From Gammaproteobacteria bacterium (lineage in GTDB: Bacteria > Pseudomonadota > Gammaproteobacteria > UBA5335 > SLRW01), in the NCBI GenBank assembly GCA_007130745.1, contig SLRW01000005.1:1-42152 (forward strand): a stretch of DNA of 42,152 nucleotides, written 5' to 3'. Position 1 is the stretch's first letter; each line of letters starts with the position of its first letter. The translations under genes and the position numbers were made by a program. This document shows, piece by piece, positions 6,568-16,023 of the stretch. A model generated the notes under the pieces. That model made no database searches. It had not been told where the DNA came from and saw only the letters and a program-made list of their open reading frames with translations.

Positions 6568-7666
6568 ATGGCGGAAACCAATATGCTGCGTCAGGAAATT
6601 CGGGATATGCAAGGTCGCTGGCGCGACCTGAGGGGGTATCTTTGACCTTGATCGCCGCCGGGAAAGATTGACCGAAGTCGATCGCGAACTGGAGCAGCCG
6701 GAAGTCTGGGAGAATCCCGAGCGTGCCCAGGAACTGGGCCGCGAGCGCGCCCGTCTGGATGAGCTGGTTGGCAGCATGGGTCGCATCAACCAGGGACTTG
6801 AAGAAGCCGCCGAGTTGCTGGAGCTGGCCGAGGCCGAGGACGACGAGGCCACCGTGGCAGAAATCACGGGGGACATTGAATCACTGCAACAGCGGCTGGC
6901 CGGGCTTGAGTTCCGACGCATGTTCTCCGGCCCCATGGACGCCTCGGCTGCTTTTGTGGATATCCAGGCCGGCTCTGGTGGTACCGAGGCCCAGGACTGG
7001 GCCGAGATGCTGTTGCGCATGTATTTGCGCTGGGCTGAAAAACAGGGTTTTATCACTGAGTTGGTGGAGGTGTCTGCGGGTGAAACCGCGGGCATCAAAA
7101 GCGCCACCATACGGATTGACGGTGAATATGCCTTTGGCTGGTTGCGTACCGAAACCGGGGTGCACCGGCTGGTTCGCAAGTCGCCCTTTGATTCGGGTAA
7201 CCGCCGTCATACATCTTTCGCGGCGGTGTTCGTGTCGCCGGAAGTCGATGATGACGTGGATATAGACATCAACCCGGCTGATCTGCGGATTGATGTCTAC
7301 CGCGCCAGTGGCGCCGGCGGGCAGCATGTGAATACCACCGAATCGGCGGTGCGCATTACACATAATCCCACCGGTGTAGTGGTGCAGTGTCAGAATGATC
7401 GCTCCCAGCACAAAAACCGTGCCACAGCCATGAAGCAGCTCAAGTCCAAGCTTTATGAGCTTGAGATGCAGAAACGTCGCACCGAGGCGCAGGCCCAGGC
7501 CGATTCCAAGGCCGATATCGGCTGGGGCAGCCAGATCCGCTCTTATGTGCTGGACCAGTCGCGTATCAAGGATTTGCGTACCGGCGTGGAAACCGGCAAT
7601 ACCCAGGCGGTGCTTGACGGGAGTCTGAACGAGTTCATTGAAGCCAGTCTCAAACAGGGGCTGTAA
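6568..7666 (+). CDS. prfB: Peptide chain release factor 2, expressed by +1 programmed frameshift
   Basis: 0-frame [25 protein letters not shown] ends at in-frame TGA 6643-6645; +1 frame continues [16 protein letters not shown]... with GGQ motif ([19 protein letters not shown]). Confidence 0.97.
6631..6646 (+). promoter_or_regulatory. RF2 programmed frameshift site: SD-like AGGGGG + slippery CTT TGA C
   Basis: AGGGGGTATCTTTGAC, the canonical prfB recoding element. Confidence 0.95.
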
Positions 7667-7682: not shown

Positions 7683-9182
7683 ATGAGCGAAGAACACGAA
7701 GAACACCGGCTGATTGCCCAGCGGCGCGAAAAACTGGATCGTCTGCGTGAGCAGGACCAGGCCTTTCCCAACGATTTCCGGCGAGATTCAGTGGCTGATG
7801 AGCTGCAGGGAATGTATGGGCAGCGCAGTGGCGAGTCGCTGGAAGCCGAAGGCATCCGGGTGCGGGTAGCGGGCCGCTTGATGGCCAAGCGGGTGATGGG
7901 CAAGGCCAGTTTTGCCCAGGTCCAGGATCATTCCGGTCGTCTGCAATTGTTCCTGGAGCGCGATGCTCTGGCGGAAGGTGTTTACGCCGAATTCAAGAGC
8001 TGGGACGTGGGTGATATTGTTGGCGCCGAGGGCACGCTGTTTCGTACTAAAACCGGCGAGCTGACGGTACGCGTTGAACGGCTGCGCTTGCTGGTCAAGT
8101 CCCTGCGCCCGCTGCCGGAGAAGTTTCACGGCCTCAGTGATCAGGAAATGCGCTATCGCCAGCGTTACGTGGACCTGATCATGAACCCGGAGGTAGTTGG
8201 GGTATTCCGCCAGCGTGCGCGGATTGTGCAGCTGGTGCGTGATTTCATGAACGGCATGGGTTTTCTGGAAGTGGAAACACCCATGATGCAGCCCATTCCC
8301 GGCGGCGCCCAGGCGCGCCCCTTTGTGACCCACCACAATGCTCTGGACATGGACCTGTATCTGAGGGTGGCGCCGGAACTGTATCTCAAGCGGCTGGTGG
8401 TGGGAGGCTTCGAGCGGGTTTACGAGATCAACCGCAGCTTTCGCAACGAGGGCGTATCCACCCGGCACAATCCCGAGTTCACGATGCTCGAGCTGTATCA
8501 GGCCTATGCCGGCTACACGGATATGATGGATCTGACCGAGCGCCTGCTGCGTACGTTGGTTGAGATGCTCTACGGTGACACCAAACTGAACTGGCTGGGC
8601 CAGCAGTACGATTTTTCGGGTACTTTTGCTCGCGTGAGTGTGGAACAGGCGCTGCTCGACAGTGACGCCGGGATTGACCCGGAGCGCTTGCGTGATGAAG
8701 CGCACCTGTGCGAGCGGTGTCAGCACCACGGTATCGAGGTGCAGTCCGAATGGGGGGCGGGAAAGCTGCAGCTGGAGCTGTTCGAGAAGCTGGTCGAGAG
8801 CACCCTTGAACAGCCGGTGTTCATCACTGACTATCCCACCGAGGTTTCACCGCTGGCGCGACGGCGTGATGATGACCCCTTTCTTGTCGAGCGCTTCGAG
8901 TTCTTCGTCGGCGGCCGCGAGATTGCCAACGGTTTCTCCGAACTCAACGATGCCGAGGATCAGGCCGAGCGCTTTCGTGAGCAGGCCCGCAGCAAGGAAG
9001 CCGGCGACGAAGAGGCAATGTTCTTTGATGCCGACTATGTGCGCGCGCTGGAATACGGCATGCCACCCACCGCCGGGCAGGGGATTGGTCTTGACCGCCT
9101 GGTGATGTTGCTGACTGACACGGCGTCCATTCGTGACGTGTTGTTGTTTCCGTTGATGCGCCCGGAGGCAGAAAGCGATTGA
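7683..9182 (+). CDS. lysS: Lysyl-tRNA synthetase, class II
   Basis: [59 protein letters not shown]; follows prfB. Confidence 0.97.
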
Positions 9183-9183
9183 T

Positions 9184-10245
9184 CTAGTCGGACTTGATCC
9201 CGGGCACTGCGTAGGGGAGTTCGCCGGGGGTGATTTCCGGCCCCTCGGCTGAATGAAGATGCAGTGGCGGGTTATCAAGTGCATCCAGGCGTACCACCAG
9301 CAGCAGTGACCAGGCGTTGTCGCCATCCGGGCGGGCATCAGCAATATGGCCAATGGCCTGGGCGCCGTCGCTGCTGAATATCGGGTCACCGGGTTCGGGG
9401 CGTTGCTGGTTCAGGCAGCGGGCGAGAATCATGCGCCGGTTGGGCCGGCCACGGTGTTGCAGACGGGCGATCACTTCCTGACCCGGGTAGCAGCCCTTGC
9501 GAAAGCTGATGCCGTCGAGCAGCTCCAGATTGACGCTCTGGCCCACGAACAGGCCGACGGTGGCCGGGTGGATCATCGGCAGCCCGGAGGCATGATCCAG
9601 CAGTTGCCATGCATCGCTGCCAACCGGCGCACCATGCACGTTGAGCTTCTCCCATACCTGCTTTGCGGCATCATTTTCGAGCAGCACTTCCAGGCGGGGT
9701 TGCGGGCCGGATATACGCAGTACGGGGTGCCCACCGCAGCGGCCTGTGGCATCAACCGGCTCGACTACGCTGTCACCCAGTGCCTCGCCCAGCAGGCGGA
9801 GTGCTTCGGGGCCGGAAACACCCAGCCGGATATAGCGGTTGGACAGATCGCTGATGGTCACCTTGGCACGCAATACGTATTTTTGCAGGTGTGCGATAGT
9901 GGGCTCCACCAGCACGCGGGGCAAGGACAGAGCCAGTGTGTCGGCATCAAGCCAAAACACCCGCACGATGGCCAACAATCGCCCTTTGGGGTCGCACAGG
10001 CCACCCAGGCGGCTCCGATTTTCGGACAACCCTGTGACATCGCAGGTCAGTTGGGAATGAAGAAAATCCCGTGCCTGTTCGCCGCTAACGCCAATCAGCC
10101 CGAGATGGGAGAGGTCGGCAAAGATATTGCCTGTATGCGCCATGCTGGCTTCCTGTACGGGCACACCAAAATGAAGCACTTCGCCGCTGTCCTGGTCGAA
10201 TTCGGCGCCGGCGTTGGCGAGAAAACCTTTCCATTCGGGTTGCAT
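9184..10245 (-). CDS. ygfZ: Folate-binding YgfZ (GcvT-like) protein, Fe-S cluster maintenance
   Basis: LGLIGVSGEQARDFLHSQLTCDV; KGCYPGQEVIARLQHRGRPNRR (the YgfZ K-GC-PGQE motif). Confidence 0.93.
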   Translation of the reverse strand: MQPEWKGFLANAGAEFDQDSGEVLHFGVPVQEASMAHTGNIFADLSHLGLIGVSGEQARDFLHSQLTCDVTGLSENRSRLGGLCDPKGRLLAIVRVFWLDADTLALSLPRVLVEPTIAHLQKYVLRAKVTISDLSNRYIRLGVSGPEALRLLGEALGDSVVEPVDATGRCGGHPVLRISGPQPRLEVLLENDAAKQVWEKLNVHGAPVGSDAWQLLDHASGLPMIHPATVGLFVGQSVNLELLDGISFRKGCYPGQEVIARLQHRGRPNRRMILARCLNQQRPEPGDPIFSSDGAQAIGHIADARPDGDNAWSLLLVVRLDALDNPPLHLHSAEGPEITPGELPYAVPGIKSD

Positions 10246-10365
10246 GTCCGGTCTCCGGAAGCGGCTGCGTGAAAAGTTCTGCGGAGTGCAATCTTACCCA
10301 CAGGTAAACGAGTAAATAAAGCCGTATTCAAGGCCGGTTCAAACGCCGTTTTTGCTGGCTGGCGC

Positions 10366-10394
10366 TTGCGTGATGGCCGCAGATTCAGTATAAA
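10366..10394 (+). promoter_or_regulatory. Putative sigma70 promoter of the SDHAF4-sdh operon
   Basis: TTGCGT (10366-10371) - 17 nt - TATAAA (10389-10394), about 30 nt upstream of the ATG at 10425. Confidence 0.6.
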
Positions 10395-10424
10395 CGTGGC
10401 CTCTTCCTTGAGGCAGGGGCAGGC

Positions 10425-10601
10425 ATGCGCAAGCACGGCGACAACCCGGCTGACAAGCGCGTCCGGCAGGGCGACCCGGCGACCCGGTCTGCAGGTGATG
10501 CCGGCAATAGTCAGCTGCCACCCGAGTTTGGCGGCCCCGAGGGACCGGAACCTACGCGTTACGGTGACTGGGAGCGTCGGGGACGCTGCAGCGATTTCTG
10601 A
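10425..10601 (+). CDS. SDHAF4/DUF1674-family succinate dehydrogenase assembly factor (58 aa; absent from ORF track)
   Basis: My translation: [58 protein letters not shown]. The C-terminal [23 protein letters not shown] is the family signature; purine-rich GGGG about 8 nt before the ATG; directly upstream of sdhC. Confidence 0.9.
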   Translation: [58 protein letters not shown]

Positions 10602-10697
10602 AACCGGGTTTGTCATCACCCGGCATTAATTCAGTGCGCACGTGCACGGGGGGTATGACCTCCGGTAGCGCGCGGATAATCAGCAGGAGAATACCTG

Positions 10698-11093
10698 ATG
10701 GCAGTAAATGATCGGCCATTGTCGCCGGCACTCCAGGTTTATCGTTGGCACCTGTTGATGGCGATGTCCATCCTGCATCGTGCCAGCGGGGTTTTACTGG
10801 CTCTGGGTGCCGTGGTGCTGGTGGTGTGGCTGCTGGCGCTGGCATCGGGCCCGGAAGCCTATGTCCGGGTGAGCGGGGTGATCGGCTCCGTGCCTGGCCA
10901 GGTTCTGCTCTTCGGCTGGTCCGCGGCGCTGTTCTATCATCTCTGCAACGGTATTCGGCATCTGTTCTGGGATGCGGGCAAGGGCTATGACTTGTCTGCG
11001 GCCTATGCCAGTGGCTATGCCGTACTTGCGGCCACGCTGATACTGACCCTGGCCGCCTGGGGTGGCGCCTGTCTGGTACTCGGGGGATCATGA
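10698..11093 (+). CDS. sdhC: Succinate dehydrogenase cytochrome b556 subunit
   Basis: RPLSPALQVYRWHLLMAMSILHRASGVLL; HLCNGIRHLFWDAG. Confidence 0.95.
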   Translation: MAVNDRPLSPALQVYRWHLLMAMSILHRASGVLLALGAVVLVVWLLALASGPEAYVRVSGVIGSVPGQVLLFGWSAALFYHLCNGIRHLFWDAGKGYDLSAAYASGYAVLAATLILTLAAWGGACLVLGGS

Positions 11094-11473
11094 TGGATAT
11101 GCGTAAACCTCTGGCCCGGGTAAGGGGCCTGGGTGCGGCCGGCGAGGGTGTCGGTCACTGGTGGGCCCAGCGGGTTACTGCGGCGGCGCTGGTGCCGCTG
11201 AGTTTGTGGTTTGTGATTTCCCTGGTGATGCTGGCGGGCGCGGATTATGCGGCGATGCATGCCTGGGTGGCGCAGCCCTGGGTCAGCGTGCTGCTGATTT
11301 TGTTCATTATTGCCACCTTGCATCACGCCCAGCTCGGTCTGCAGGTGGTAATCGAGGATTATGTGCCCACGCCGTTGCTCAGGATCGCTTCCATACTGCT
11401 GGTCAAGGCGGTGGCCGTAGTGCTTGTCATGGCCGGTGTGCTGGCCGTACTGCAAGTAGCCCTGGGAGGTTAG
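11090..11473 (+). CDS. sdhD: Succinate dehydrogenase membrane anchor subunit
   Basis: Three hydrophobic helices; HHAQLGLQVVIEDYV motif; overlaps sdhC by ATGA. Confidence 0.93.
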   Translation: MMDMRKPLARVRGLGAAGEGVGHWWAQRVTAAALVPLSLWFVISLVMLAGADYAAMHAWVAQPWVSVLLILFIIATLHHAQLGLQVVIEDYVPTPLLRIASILLVKAVAVVLVMAGVLAVLQVALGG

Positions 11474-11476
11474 CGG

Positions 11477-13267
11477 GTGTCTGAGAGTTACCGGATTATC
11501 GAGCACGAATACGATGTGGTGGTGGTGGGTGCCGGTGGCGCCGGCCTGCGGGCCACGCTGGGCATGGCCGAAAAAGGGCTGTCCACGGCCTGCGTGACCA
11601 AGATCTTTCCCACCCGCAGCCATACCGTGGCCGCCCAGGGCGGCATGAGTGCCTCGCTCGCCAATATGGGAGAAGATGACTGGCGCTGGCATATGTACGA
11701 TACCGTCAAGGGCTCGGATTGGCTGGGTGATCAGGATGCCATCGAGTATATGTGCCGCGAAGCGGTGCCGGCGGTGGTGGAACTCGAACACTACGGTGTG
11801 CCTTTCTCGCGCACCGAGCAAGGGCGTATCTACCAGCGGCCCTTTGGCGGGATGACTACCCATTATGGCAAGGGTACCGCCCAGCGCACCTGTGCCGCGG
11901 CTGACCGCACCGGCCACGCTATTTTGCACACGCTTTACCAGCAGGCTTTGCGCAACCGGGCTGAATTTTTTGTAGAGTATTTTGCGCTTGACCTGATCAT
12001 GGATGACGACGGGGTGTGCCGGGGTGTGACGGCCTGGAATCTTGCCGACGGCAGCATCCATCGTTTCCGTGCTCACATGGTGGTGCTGGCTACGGGGGGC
12101 TACGGCCGGACCTATTTCTCGGCGACTTCGGCGCACACCTGTACCGGTGACGGCAACGGCATGGTGCTGCGCGCCGGTTTGCCCCTGCAGGACATGGAAT
12201 TCGTCCAGTTTCATCCAACCGGTGTGTATGGCGCCGGCTGTCTGATTACCGAGGGTGTGCGTGGTGAGGGTGGCTATCTCACCAACAGTGAGGGTGAGCG
12301 CTTTATGGAGCGCTATGCGCCCAATGCCCGTGACCTGGCCTCACGCGACGTGGTCAGCCGCGCTATGACCATAGAGATTCGCGAGGGCCGTGGTGTGGGA
12401 CCGGACAAGGATCATATCCATCTGCATCTGGAGCATCTGGGTGCCGATGTGATCAATTCCCGTTTGCCGGGGATTGCTGAAACGGCGCGTATCTTCTCCG
12501 GGGTTGACGTCACTCGTGATCCCATCCCGGTGCTGCCTACGGTGCACTACAATATGGGCGGCATTCCCACCAATTATCATGGCGAAGTGGTGACCCTGAA
12601 AGGGGATGATCCGGACCATGTGGTTCCGGGGCTGATGGCGATTGGTGAGGCGGCCTGCGTGTCGGTGCACGGCGCCAATCGCCTGGGCTCTAACTCGCTG
12701 CTGGATATTGTGGTATTTGGTCGTGCTGCAGCTATTCGTTGCGCCGAGTTAATCAAGCCCGGGCAGTCGCATCCGCCGCTCACCGGCGATGATGCCGAGC
12801 GTGGCGTCGCGCGCCTGGATCGGTTGCGTAACGCCAGTGGTAGCGAGCCGACCGCAGCCATTCGCGAGCGTATGCAGAAGGTGATGCAGAGTGATGCCGC
12901 AGTGTTTCGCACCGGCGACACCCTGGCTGAAGGGCAGCAGCGTATTGATGAGGTCTATGCCAGCTTTGCTGATGTCGGGGTGACGGATCGTTCATTGATC
13001 TGGAACAGCGACCTGGTGGAAACACTGGAACTGGAGAATCTGCTGGGTAATGCCGTGGCTACCATGCATGCGGCAGCCAATCGCACCGAGAGCCGGGGTG
13101 GGCATGCCCGCGAGGATTACCCTGATCGCGATGACGACAACTGGCTCAAGCACACGCTGTCGTGGGTAGATGACGCGGGCAAGGTCCGGTTCGACTATAG
13201 ACCGGTACATATGTATACGCTCACCGATGAGGTCGAGGTGATTCCGCCCAAGGAGCGTGTTTACTGA
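11477..13267 (+). CDS. sdhA: Succinate dehydrogenase flavoprotein subunit
   Basis: [60 protein letters not shown]-terminus [26 protein letters not shown] start. Confidence 0.97.
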
Positions 13268-13276
13268 ATTGACGCG

Positions 13277-13325
13277 GAAGTCGCTCGGCGACTTCAGCAG
13301 TGGGGGTGGCAGCAGCGCCACCTCC
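13277..13325 (+). other. Two consecutive hairpins in the sdhA-sdhB gap
   Basis: GAAGTCGC-TCG-GCGACTTC (13277-13295) and GGGGGTGGC-AGCAGC-GCCACCTCC (13302-13325, with a G.U pair). Confidence 0.65.
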
Positions 13326-13345
13326 GGTAACGAGGAGATCCCGGT

Positions 13346-14125
13346 ATGGCGCAGTTCCGACTCCCGAAGAATTCCAGGATAGGCACGGGACGCGAGTTCC
13401 CGGCGCCGGAAGGAGCGCGTAACGTAAAGCGCTTCCGGATTTATCGCTATGATCCGGATAGTGGGGCTAACCCGGTGATGGACACCTATCACCTGGATCT
13501 GGACGATTGCGGGCCGATGGTGCTGGATGCGTTGATCAAGATCAAGAACGAGATTGATCCCACGCTGACTTTCCGCCGTTCCTGCCGCGAAGGTATTTGT
13601 GGCTCCTGTGCCATGAATATACAGGGTGGCAACACGCTGGCTTGCACCCAGGCGATCAGTGATTTCAGCGGGGATATCGGGATTTATCCGTTGCCCCACA
13701 TGTCCGTGGTCAAGGATCTGGTGCCGGACATGGAGCGTTTTTACGCCCAGTATGCGGCGGTGGAACCGTGGATGAAGACCGAAACGGCCACGCCGCCGGA
13801 TCGCGAGCGACTGCAGTCTCCTGAGGAGCGGGCGCGTCTGGATGGCCTTTACGAGTGCATTTTGTGCGCCTGTTGCTCTACCGCCTGCCCAAGTTACTGG
13901 TGGAACGGTGACCGTTATCTGGGACCGGCAGCGCTGCTACAGGCCTATCGCTGGATTGCCGACAGCCGAGATGAGGCCACTGGTGAGCGTCTGGATGCAC
14001 TGGAAGATCCCTTCAAGCTGTACCGTTGTCATACGATTATGAATTGCACCCGGACCTGTCCCAAGGGGCTCAATCCGGCGCGTGCCATCGGCGAAATCAA
14101 GAAGCTGATGGTGGAGCGGCGCTGA
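13346..14125 (+). CDS. sdhB: Succinate dehydrogenase iron-sulfur subunit
   Basis: [60 protein letters not shown]. Confidence 0.97.
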
Positions 14126-14136
14126 GTCTGACGTTT

Positions 14137-14388
14137 ATGGATGCTGAACGGGAGCAGGCGCGCCTGCGCTGGATGTGCCGGCGAGGGATGAAAGAGCTCG
14201 ACCAGCTGCTGCTGGGTTTTTTCGATGCCCGCTATGCAACGCTTGAACCCTTAGCACGTCAGCGTTTCGCCGAATTGCTGGAATGGCAGGATCCGGAGCT
14301 GGCGGCACTGTTATTTGGGCGCATGGCGCCTCCGGACACGGAATGTGCGGATGTGGTACGGCAAATTCGAGAGTGCGCGCGTTTTTGA
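14137..14388 (+). CDS. sdhE: SdhE/CptB (SDHAF2-type) FAD assembly factor
   Basis: LRWMCRRGMKELDQLLLGFFDARYATLEPLARQRFAELLEWQDPEL, including the CRRGMKELD RGxxE motif. Confidence 0.94.
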   Translation: MDAEREQARLRWMCRRGMKELDQLLLGFFDARYATLEPLARQRFAELLEWQDPELAALLFGRMAPPDTECADVVRQIRECARF

Positions 14389-14863
14389 GCCCCGGCCTTC
14401 CCGGCAGTTGCTGATCTCACTGACCCTGTTGTATGCAGCTACACTCGCGCTGGTGGTGTTGATGTTGCCATTGTGGCTGGCTCTGCCGCTGCTTGGGTTG
14501 TTGCTCTGGCGCGGCGGACGGGACTGGCAATGCCACTATGGCCACCGGCGCATCGTGCGACTGGTGGCAGGGGCGCCAGGGCGGTGGTTTGTACATCAGG
14601 CCGATGGTATCCGGCAGGAAGTGACTGTTGCCGCCGCCAGTGTGGTGCATAGTCGGCTTTTGATGCTGATGCTTGTAAATGCGAATGGATGGCGGGGGCC
14701 GCTGGTGCTGCCTCGTGATGCCCTGGCTGCCGAAGCACACCGGCGGCTGCGGGTGTTGTTGTGGTGCCGGGGCGAACCGGACACTCAGGAAGATGAGTTT
14801 GCCGGCGAGACACGCTGGTGGCGACAGTTCAGACTGCCACGCGGCAGTGCCGGCAGAGAGTGA
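14351..14863 (+). CDS. ygfX: YgfX/CptA-like membrane protein
   Basis: Overlaps sdhE; two N-terminal TM segments then a soluble domain (PSRQLLISLTLLYAATLALV...). Start uncertain (14315 or 14351). Confidence 0.75.
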   Translation: MWYGKFESARVFEPRPSRQLLISLTLLYAATLALVVLMLPLWLALPLLGLLLWRGGRDWQCHYGHRRIVRLVAGAPGRWFVHQADGIRQEVTVAAASVVHSRLLMLMLVNANGWRGPLVLPRDALAAEAHRRLRVLLWCRGEPDTQEDEFAGETRWWRQFRLPRGSAGRE

Positions 14864-14873
14864 GGGGTAATCA

Positions 14874-15260
14874 ATGGAAGCACGGCTTGAGCGTATCGGC
14901 TTTTACGGGAGTCTGGGCTGGCTGGTTCTGGCCGGGCTCAGTCTGGTGATGCTTGTAGAGAGCGGCGCCCCGGCGGAGCTACCCGAACCCACCGCCTGGA
15001 CCTGGGCCAGTTATGGTTTGCTGGCCATTGCGATCGTGGTGGTGTATCCACTGATTATTTATGTTGCCGCAGCACCAACGCGCATTCCATGGTTAAGTCT
15101 GCTCATTAGTATGGTGCTGGTGGAAGGGGCGCGGATATTTGTGCCTGATCTGTTTGACTGGCGACTGGGATTGCACGGACTGGGGTTGTGCTTTGGCGTT
15201 TTTGCCGCCTGGCGCTTCAAGCTGTTGATGGATGCCAGAGGCGCACCCCCTTCAGCCTAG
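14874..15260 (+). CDS. Hypothetical multi-TM membrane protein (128 aa)
   Basis: Four predicted hydrophobic stretches; intact ORF after ygfX and ending before a strong terminator; no family recognised. Confidence 0.6.
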   Translation: MEARLERIGFYGSLGWLVLAGLSLVMLVESGAPAELPEPTAWTWASYGLLAIAIVVVYPLIIYVAAAPTRIPWLSLLISMVLVEGARIFVPDLFDWRLGLHGLGLCFGVFAAWRFKLLMDARGAPPSA

Positions 15261-15283
15261 CCGGGCGCCACATATGGAGACAT

Positions 15284-15318
15284 AAAAAAACCCCGCGCCA
15301 GATGCGCGGGGTTTTTTT
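15284..15318. terminator. Bidirectional rho-independent terminator
   Basis: AAAAAAACCCCGCGC-CAGAT-GCGCGGGGTTTTTTT between convergent genes. Confidence 0.95.
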
Positions 15319-15339
15319 ATGGACGGTCTTGAATGCGGA

Positions 15340-16023
15340 TCAGAAGCTGTAACGAAGACCCGCGGCAATGGTGCGGAAGTCATCGTTGATGTTGCCGCCG
15401 ACCGTCAGGGCAATGCTGTCGTTACCGGTGAGACCGCCGAAGTTGTCCACCAGGGTGTAAATACCCTCGTAGCGCAGCGAGGTGTTGGCGCGCAGGTTGC
15501 TGTAGTCGACGAAGACTTCACCATCCGGATTGTCGTTAGCATCAAGGACGTCATCCTCAAAGGCGCCTTCGAAGACGTAGTCGATATGAACGCCAAACTG
15601 AAAGGCCTGGTTAATAGCATGGCGCAGACCGACACTGGCGCCGCCGGTGAAGTCGAACTGGGTGTCGCCGCTGGTGTCGTCGTAGACGTTGGCTACGGTA
15701 CGCAGAACTGCCACCACATCGGTGCCTCTACCGACTCTCTCACGGTAACCCAGGCCCAGGCTGACACGCTGGAAATCCAGGATGTCACGATTGAAGTCAT
15801 GGTCGCGGTAGTCGTAGACCACGAAGAGATTATCGTGAACCTGCCAGGAAAAATTGAAATCCAGCCCGGAGGCGTCGCGGCGTGTGGTGTTGGAATCTTC
15901 GATATTGTCCTGGCCGGTGGCGTGGTAGCCAACGCCCACATAGGAATAGCTGAAGTCATTGGCCAGTACAGGCGTTGCCGGCATTATCATTGCCGCCATG
16001 CAGACGAAGTGGCGTGCTTTCAT
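15340..16023 (-). CDS. Outer-membrane beta-barrel protein (putative)
   Basis: MKARHFVCMAAMIMPATPVLANDFSYSYVGVGYHATG...: signal peptide, alternating amphipathic strands, terminal aromatic (GLRYSF). GGAGAA before the ATG. Confidence 0.8.
   Translation of the reverse strand: MKARHFVCMAAMIMPATPVLANDFSYSYVGVGYHATGQDNIEDSNTTRRDASGLDFNFSWQVHDNLFVVYDYRDHDFNRDILDFQRVSLGLGYRERVGRGTDVVAVLRTVANVYDDTSGDTQFDFTGGASVGLRHAINQAFQFGVHIDYVFEGAFEDDVLDANDNPDGEVFVDYSNLRANTSLRYEGIYTLVDNFGGLTGNDSIALTVGGNINDDFRTIAAGLRYSF

Follow-up and report, generated by a model that had tools for sequence, protein, structure and literature searches.

SDHAF4 is a helper used by mitochondria to finish respiratory complex II, and to our knowledge no bacterial member of its family has been functionally examined. 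Does the 58-codon ORF that precedes the sdh genes in a 42,152-nucleotide stretch of gammaproteobacterial DNA (contig SLRW01000005.1; hereafter the window) encode a bacterial SDHAF4, and is it likely to act there as in the human pathway? A structural paper of 2018 knew of no SDHAF4 homologue in bacteria (PMC5773532), and a review of 2023 mentioned a limited number, among alpha- and gammaproteobacteria that are not model systems (PMC10238741). The family and these homologues are thus already published (PMC10784507, PMC10238741). Our literature search found the operon position of SDHAF4, its frequency and its link to the type of SdhA unreported, an absence that is not proof, as most subscription journals lay outside the search.

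The initial annotation had proposed an SDHAF4/DUF1674 gene at 10425-10601 on the forward strand, missing from the ORF track. Its coordinates, its ATG at 10425 and its TGA at 10599-10601 were confirmed, and a purine-rich stretch, GAGGCAGGGGCAGG, lies ahead of the ATG; the ORF was probably omitted from the track because 58 aa falls under a 60-aa cut-off. When the translation was searched against Pfam, PF07896 (DUF1674/SDHAF4) was the sole significant match; it scored 56.3 bits (E 4.2e-15), well above the family's gathering cut-off (23.5 bits), and a phmmer search of the PDB aligned query residues 8-58 with human SDHAF4 (8dyd_C, 8dye; E 1.5e-10). NCBIfam held no model matching the 58-aa protein, and a search of a plasmid collection was without match. 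The source genome, a 1.3 Mb draft in 156 contigs that is 80% complete, carries one SDHAF4 copy. With the conserved Asp-Phe ends described below, the assignment passes all available sequence tests, and on these grounds the ORF is confirmed as a genuine SDHAF4 relative.

The protein shares with SDHAF4 and its yeast counterpart Sdh8 the C-terminal core, four functionally tested residues, the terminal Asp-Phe and a short, probably disordered N-terminal region. It differs from them in being only 58 aa long, without room for a mitochondrial targeting peptide, and in being encoded by what appears to be the first cistron alongside its presumed client, sdhA. Family and core are also shared by bacterial DUF1674 proteins from other classes of Pseudomonadota, for example in Caulobacter or the one solved by NMR as 2k5k. 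The phmmer search also identified PDB entry 2k5k, deposited as "uncharacterized protein RhR2", as a DUF1674/SDHAF4 family protein; it is probably a solved family member of bacterial origin without an assigned function.

In the human complex, D107 and F108 of SDHAF4 occupy the active (dicarboxylate) site of SDHA, touching H407 and R451, while E84 and E92 touch R171 (PMC10784507). Mutants of D107/F108 bind more weakly and fail to release SDHAF2, binding of E84N is undetectable, and with E92N only about half is released (PMC10784507). According to the phmmer alignment these four residues correspond to E34, E42, D57 and F58 of the window protein, and all four are present. Asp-Phe followed immediately by a stop codon was found in all 96 sequences (95 fetched homologues plus the window), and each of the 94 sequences scorable at the position equivalent to E92 has Glu or Asp there. 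On the side of SdhA, the contact residues R121, H357 and R402 (human R171, H407 and R451) are present, as is the FAD-binding His49 (human H99); the numbering offsets of 50, 50 and 49 agree with the range of the alignment. The three contact residues were assigned by way of known SDHA motifs.

The gene order in the window is SDHAF4-sdhC-sdhD-sdhA-sdhB-sdhE-cptA, all on the forward strand. The sdhC gene (cytochrome b556 subunit, 10698-11093; PF01127, E 6.4e-35; TIGR02970) starts 96 nt past the SDHAF4 stop, the distance originally given, and is followed by sdhD (membrane anchor, 11090-11473; PF01127, E 6.2e-24), sdhA (mitochondrial-type flavoprotein, 11477-13267; TIGR01816) and sdhB (iron-sulfur subunit, 13346-14125; PF13085, E 4.1e-33). 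Next come sdhE, the SDHAF2/Sdh5 homologue, in which RRGMKELD represents the RGxxE motif (14137-14388; PF03937, E 1.2e-19; 56.6 against NF008130, below the curated cut-off of 120), and a cptA/ygfX-like gene (14315-14863; PF07254, E 2.7e-10), the true start of which may lie further in. Divergent from SDHAF4, on the reverse strand, is a ygfZ-like gene of the GCV_T fold (9184-10245; PF01571, E 5.1e-17). The sdh genes are thus flanked by ygfZ on one side and by sdhE and cptA (14137-14863) on the other, which groups complex II assembly and repair factors together; in E. coli these three genes are located away from sdh. An Rfam search of 9000-16000 found no RNA element near the operon. Elsewhere in the window, prfB (release factor 2, 6631-7666) apparently has the programmed +1 frameshift site that is classical for this gene, AGGGGGTATCTTTGAC, which immediately precedes the long ORF at 6668-7666, such frameshifting being a known mechanism in prfB.

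A promoter had been suggested ahead of the ORF, and the block in question does consist of TTGCGT at 10366, a 17-nt spacer and TATAAA at 10389-10394, 30 nt ahead of the SDHAF4 ATG. Its position, spacing and distance from the gene therefore stand. Its match to consensus (8 of 12 positions) does not serve as evidence by itself, as 199 of 500 dinucleotide-shuffled versions of this intergenic region also reached at least 8 matches, and a standard promoter scan did not include it among its listed sites. Support comes instead from conservation: of 9 genomes from the order, the window's included, 8 retain TTGCG...ATTCAGTATAAA with identical spacing amid sequence that has otherwise diverged. No comparable block was seen in a three-genome alignment of the 96 nt between SDHAF4 and sdhC. 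This pattern favours a single promoter ahead of SDHAF4 and, together with the gene order in other genomes, supports the earlier proposal that SDHAF4 would be the first cistron of the operon.

The distribution of the gene was determined in 369 Gammaproteobacteria genomes drawn evenly from the class, and PF07896 was present in 91 (~25%). With five positives from nearer relatives added to those of the class sample, 95 loci from outside the window were then fetched and compared. In 91 of the 95, SDHAF4 shares its strand with sdhC and lies immediately upstream (median gap ~73 nt). Among the 75 loci that extend far enough, sdhE comes after sdhB in 64, and among the 84 that reach far enough upstream, 54 have a divergent ygfZ there. 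An sdh operon headed by SDHAF4 is a common arrangement in Gammaproteobacteria and no oddity of the source genome. Four gammaproteobacterial SDHAF4 genes are unlinked (L058 in G047, L113 in G293, L120 in G361 and L135 in G290), and that of L120, away from sdh, adjoins a divergent ygfZ. In G047 and G293, both 1.1 Mb genomes, the SDHAF4 tail reads GITYDF instead of GRCxDF. In contrast to the gammaproteobacterial operon, DUF1674 genes of other Pseudomonadota classes mostly lie in a different region or contig from sdhA; among 28 such genomes, presumably Alphaproteobacteria for the most part, SDHAF4 was never beside sdh, the nearest being ~5.7 kb from sdhA.

Carriage of SDHAF4 follows the type of SdhA. 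By best PDB matches, the SdhA of the window resembles mitochondrial SDHA (905 bits) far more closely than it does that of E. coli (689 bits). In the class sample, the identities of the best SdhA match were two-humped, falling either at 63-100% (mitochondrial type) or at or below 59%, with the dividing line set after this gap was seen. SDHAF4 was found in 91 of 119 genomes with a mitochondrial-type SdhA and in 0 of 250 others, with one case uncertain (Fisher P 9e-62, a value that ignores shared descent). A partial control for descent was provided by five mixed families, in which SDHAF4 was confined to mitochondrial-type members: the negative members had a full E. coli-type SdhA in three families (f100, f108, f155) and the negative member had just a 43%-identical flavoprotein in the other two (f121, f150). 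Family f108 also includes a genome (G328) with a mitochondrial-type SdhA and without SDHAF4. The uncertain case is G158, a doubtful positive with a full E. coli-type SdhA elsewhere and SDHAF4 on a 1535-base contig (L136, G158:C53) that also carries the start of a mitochondrial-type sdh operon. The contig may therefore be foreign, and the locus may represent either contamination or a second operon. The residues that contact SDHAF4 are equally present in E. coli-type SdhA; being common to both types, they do not explain the restriction and were ruled out as its cause.

SDHAF4 is not strictly required even with a mitochondrial-type SdhA, as 28 genomes of that type lack a detectable copy (L139-L166); their fetched sdh stretches, some cut by contig ends, contained no SDHAF4-like motif. 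On an SdhA tree (FastTree, 117 mitochondrial-type gammaproteobacterial rows), ~12 gains or losses of SDHAF4 are needed, which implies that the gene has been repeatedly lost or gained. The human SDHA-SDHAF2 complex is stable and bacterial SdhA-SdhE complexes come apart readily (PMC10238741), which would leave less work for SDHAF4 unless mitochondrial-type SdhA behaves differently. A tentative explanation, possible rather than probable in our judgement, is that the SdhA type sets the dependence on SDHAF4: mitochondrial-type SdhA would grip SdhE tightly and need SDHAF4 for its release, E. coli-type SdhA would not, and SDHAF4-sdhCDAB-sdhE would be gained, replaced or lost as a unit. The tighter hold on SdhE is extrapolated from the contrast that the review draws between human and bacterial complexes (PMC10238741).

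SdhE, SDHAF2 and Sdh5 (PF03937) are, like SDHAF4, SdhA assembly factors, and in the window sdhE lies at the opposite end of the operon; they differ from SDHAF4 in belonging to an unrelated family and in promoting flavinylation, not a later step. SdhE was found in 90 of the 91 SDHAF4-positive class genomes, the exception (G346) being 71% complete, and in 229 of the 278 SDHAF4-negative ones. That SDHAF4 accompanies SdhE fits a role in SdhE release, weakly so since SdhE is common anyway. Four genomes with a mitochondrial-type SdhA (G170, G216, G318 and G362) had neither SDHAF4 nor an SdhE match. A Caulobacter genome included as a control contained both PF07896 and PF03937.

We consider it likely that the ORF is translated into a bacterial SDHAF4, that it forms the first cistron of an SDHAF4-sdhCDAB-sdhE operon and that its product acts as in the human pathway. 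The analysis establishes the gene and its family, the conserved key residues, purifying selection, linkage to the sdh operon, a promoter-like block kept across the order, confinement to genomes with a mitochondrial-type SdhA and the accompanying SdhE, whereas we infer translation, SdhA binding, SdhE release and handover. As the initial annotation had suggested, SDHAF4 would chaperone SdhA here. SdhE would bind SdhA and promote covalent attachment of FAD. The tail of SDHAF4 would then bind flavinylated SdhA, its C-terminal Asp-Phe entering the dicarboxylate site (H357/R402) and E34 and E42 contacting R121, and would displace SdhE before SdhB binds. Plugging the active site, SDHAF4 would shield the FAD and hand SdhA over to SdhB.

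Alternatively, SDHAF4 might plug the active site of unassembled SdhA, limiting solvent access to FAD and the production of reactive oxygen, with no part in SdhE release. The Asp-Phe tail is the most constrained part of the protein and its human counterpart sits in the dicarboxylate site (PMC10784507), and bacterial SdhA-SdhE complexes may separate without a helper (PMC10238741). We regard this as unlikely, since nearly every carrier also has SdhE and the residues involved in SDHAF2 displacement are kept, although the frequency of SdhE in non-carriers weakens the first of these arguments.

If SDHAF4 were instead a translated relic that adds little to SDH assembly in bacteria, its absence from 28 of 119 mitochondrial-type genomes and its repeated gain or loss on the SdhA tree would be readily understood. 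Codon changes, the retained operon position (91 of 95 loci) and the intact Asp-Phe-stop ends make this quite improbable. In the last 26 codons (10521-10598), which align with human SDHAF4 and contain E34, E42, D57 and F58, a same-genus genome differs by 7 synonymous codon changes and a single non-synonymous one, and a same-family genome by 14 and 4, respectively. Within the genus, the amino acid was altered at 22 of the 32 N-terminal codons. By this measure the conserved half is under strong purifying selection and the N-terminal half is unconstrained, as expected if the tail alone binds the partner; the rapid N-terminal evolution is also consistent with the disorder that marks SDHAF4 until it binds SdhA and becomes ordered, and the first ~30 residues here are probably disordered. 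The reading frame, the conservation of which in relatives was in question, is maintained in 95 homologues, and in the conserved half codon changes fall mainly at third positions. We effectively dismiss the idea that the frame arose by chance and that the real gene is the antisense ORF at 10095-10619, or none: that ORF is longer, at 174 aa, and the sense ORF falls below usual length cut-offs, but the antisense frame has no Pfam match and contains a stop codon in the genome from the same genus, while the sense ORF has its 95 conserved homologues.

The placement of SDHAF4 in the sdh operon provides genomic-context evidence that it acts on complex II in bacteria, and its presence shows that 60-aa cut-offs can hide conserved genes. 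Its distribution shows where genetic models for SDHAF4 are to be sought, and the type of SdhA offers a testable reason why E. coli manages without it. If SDHAF4-sdhCDAB-sdhE does operate as one unit, the human assembly pathway would become testable in a bacterium.
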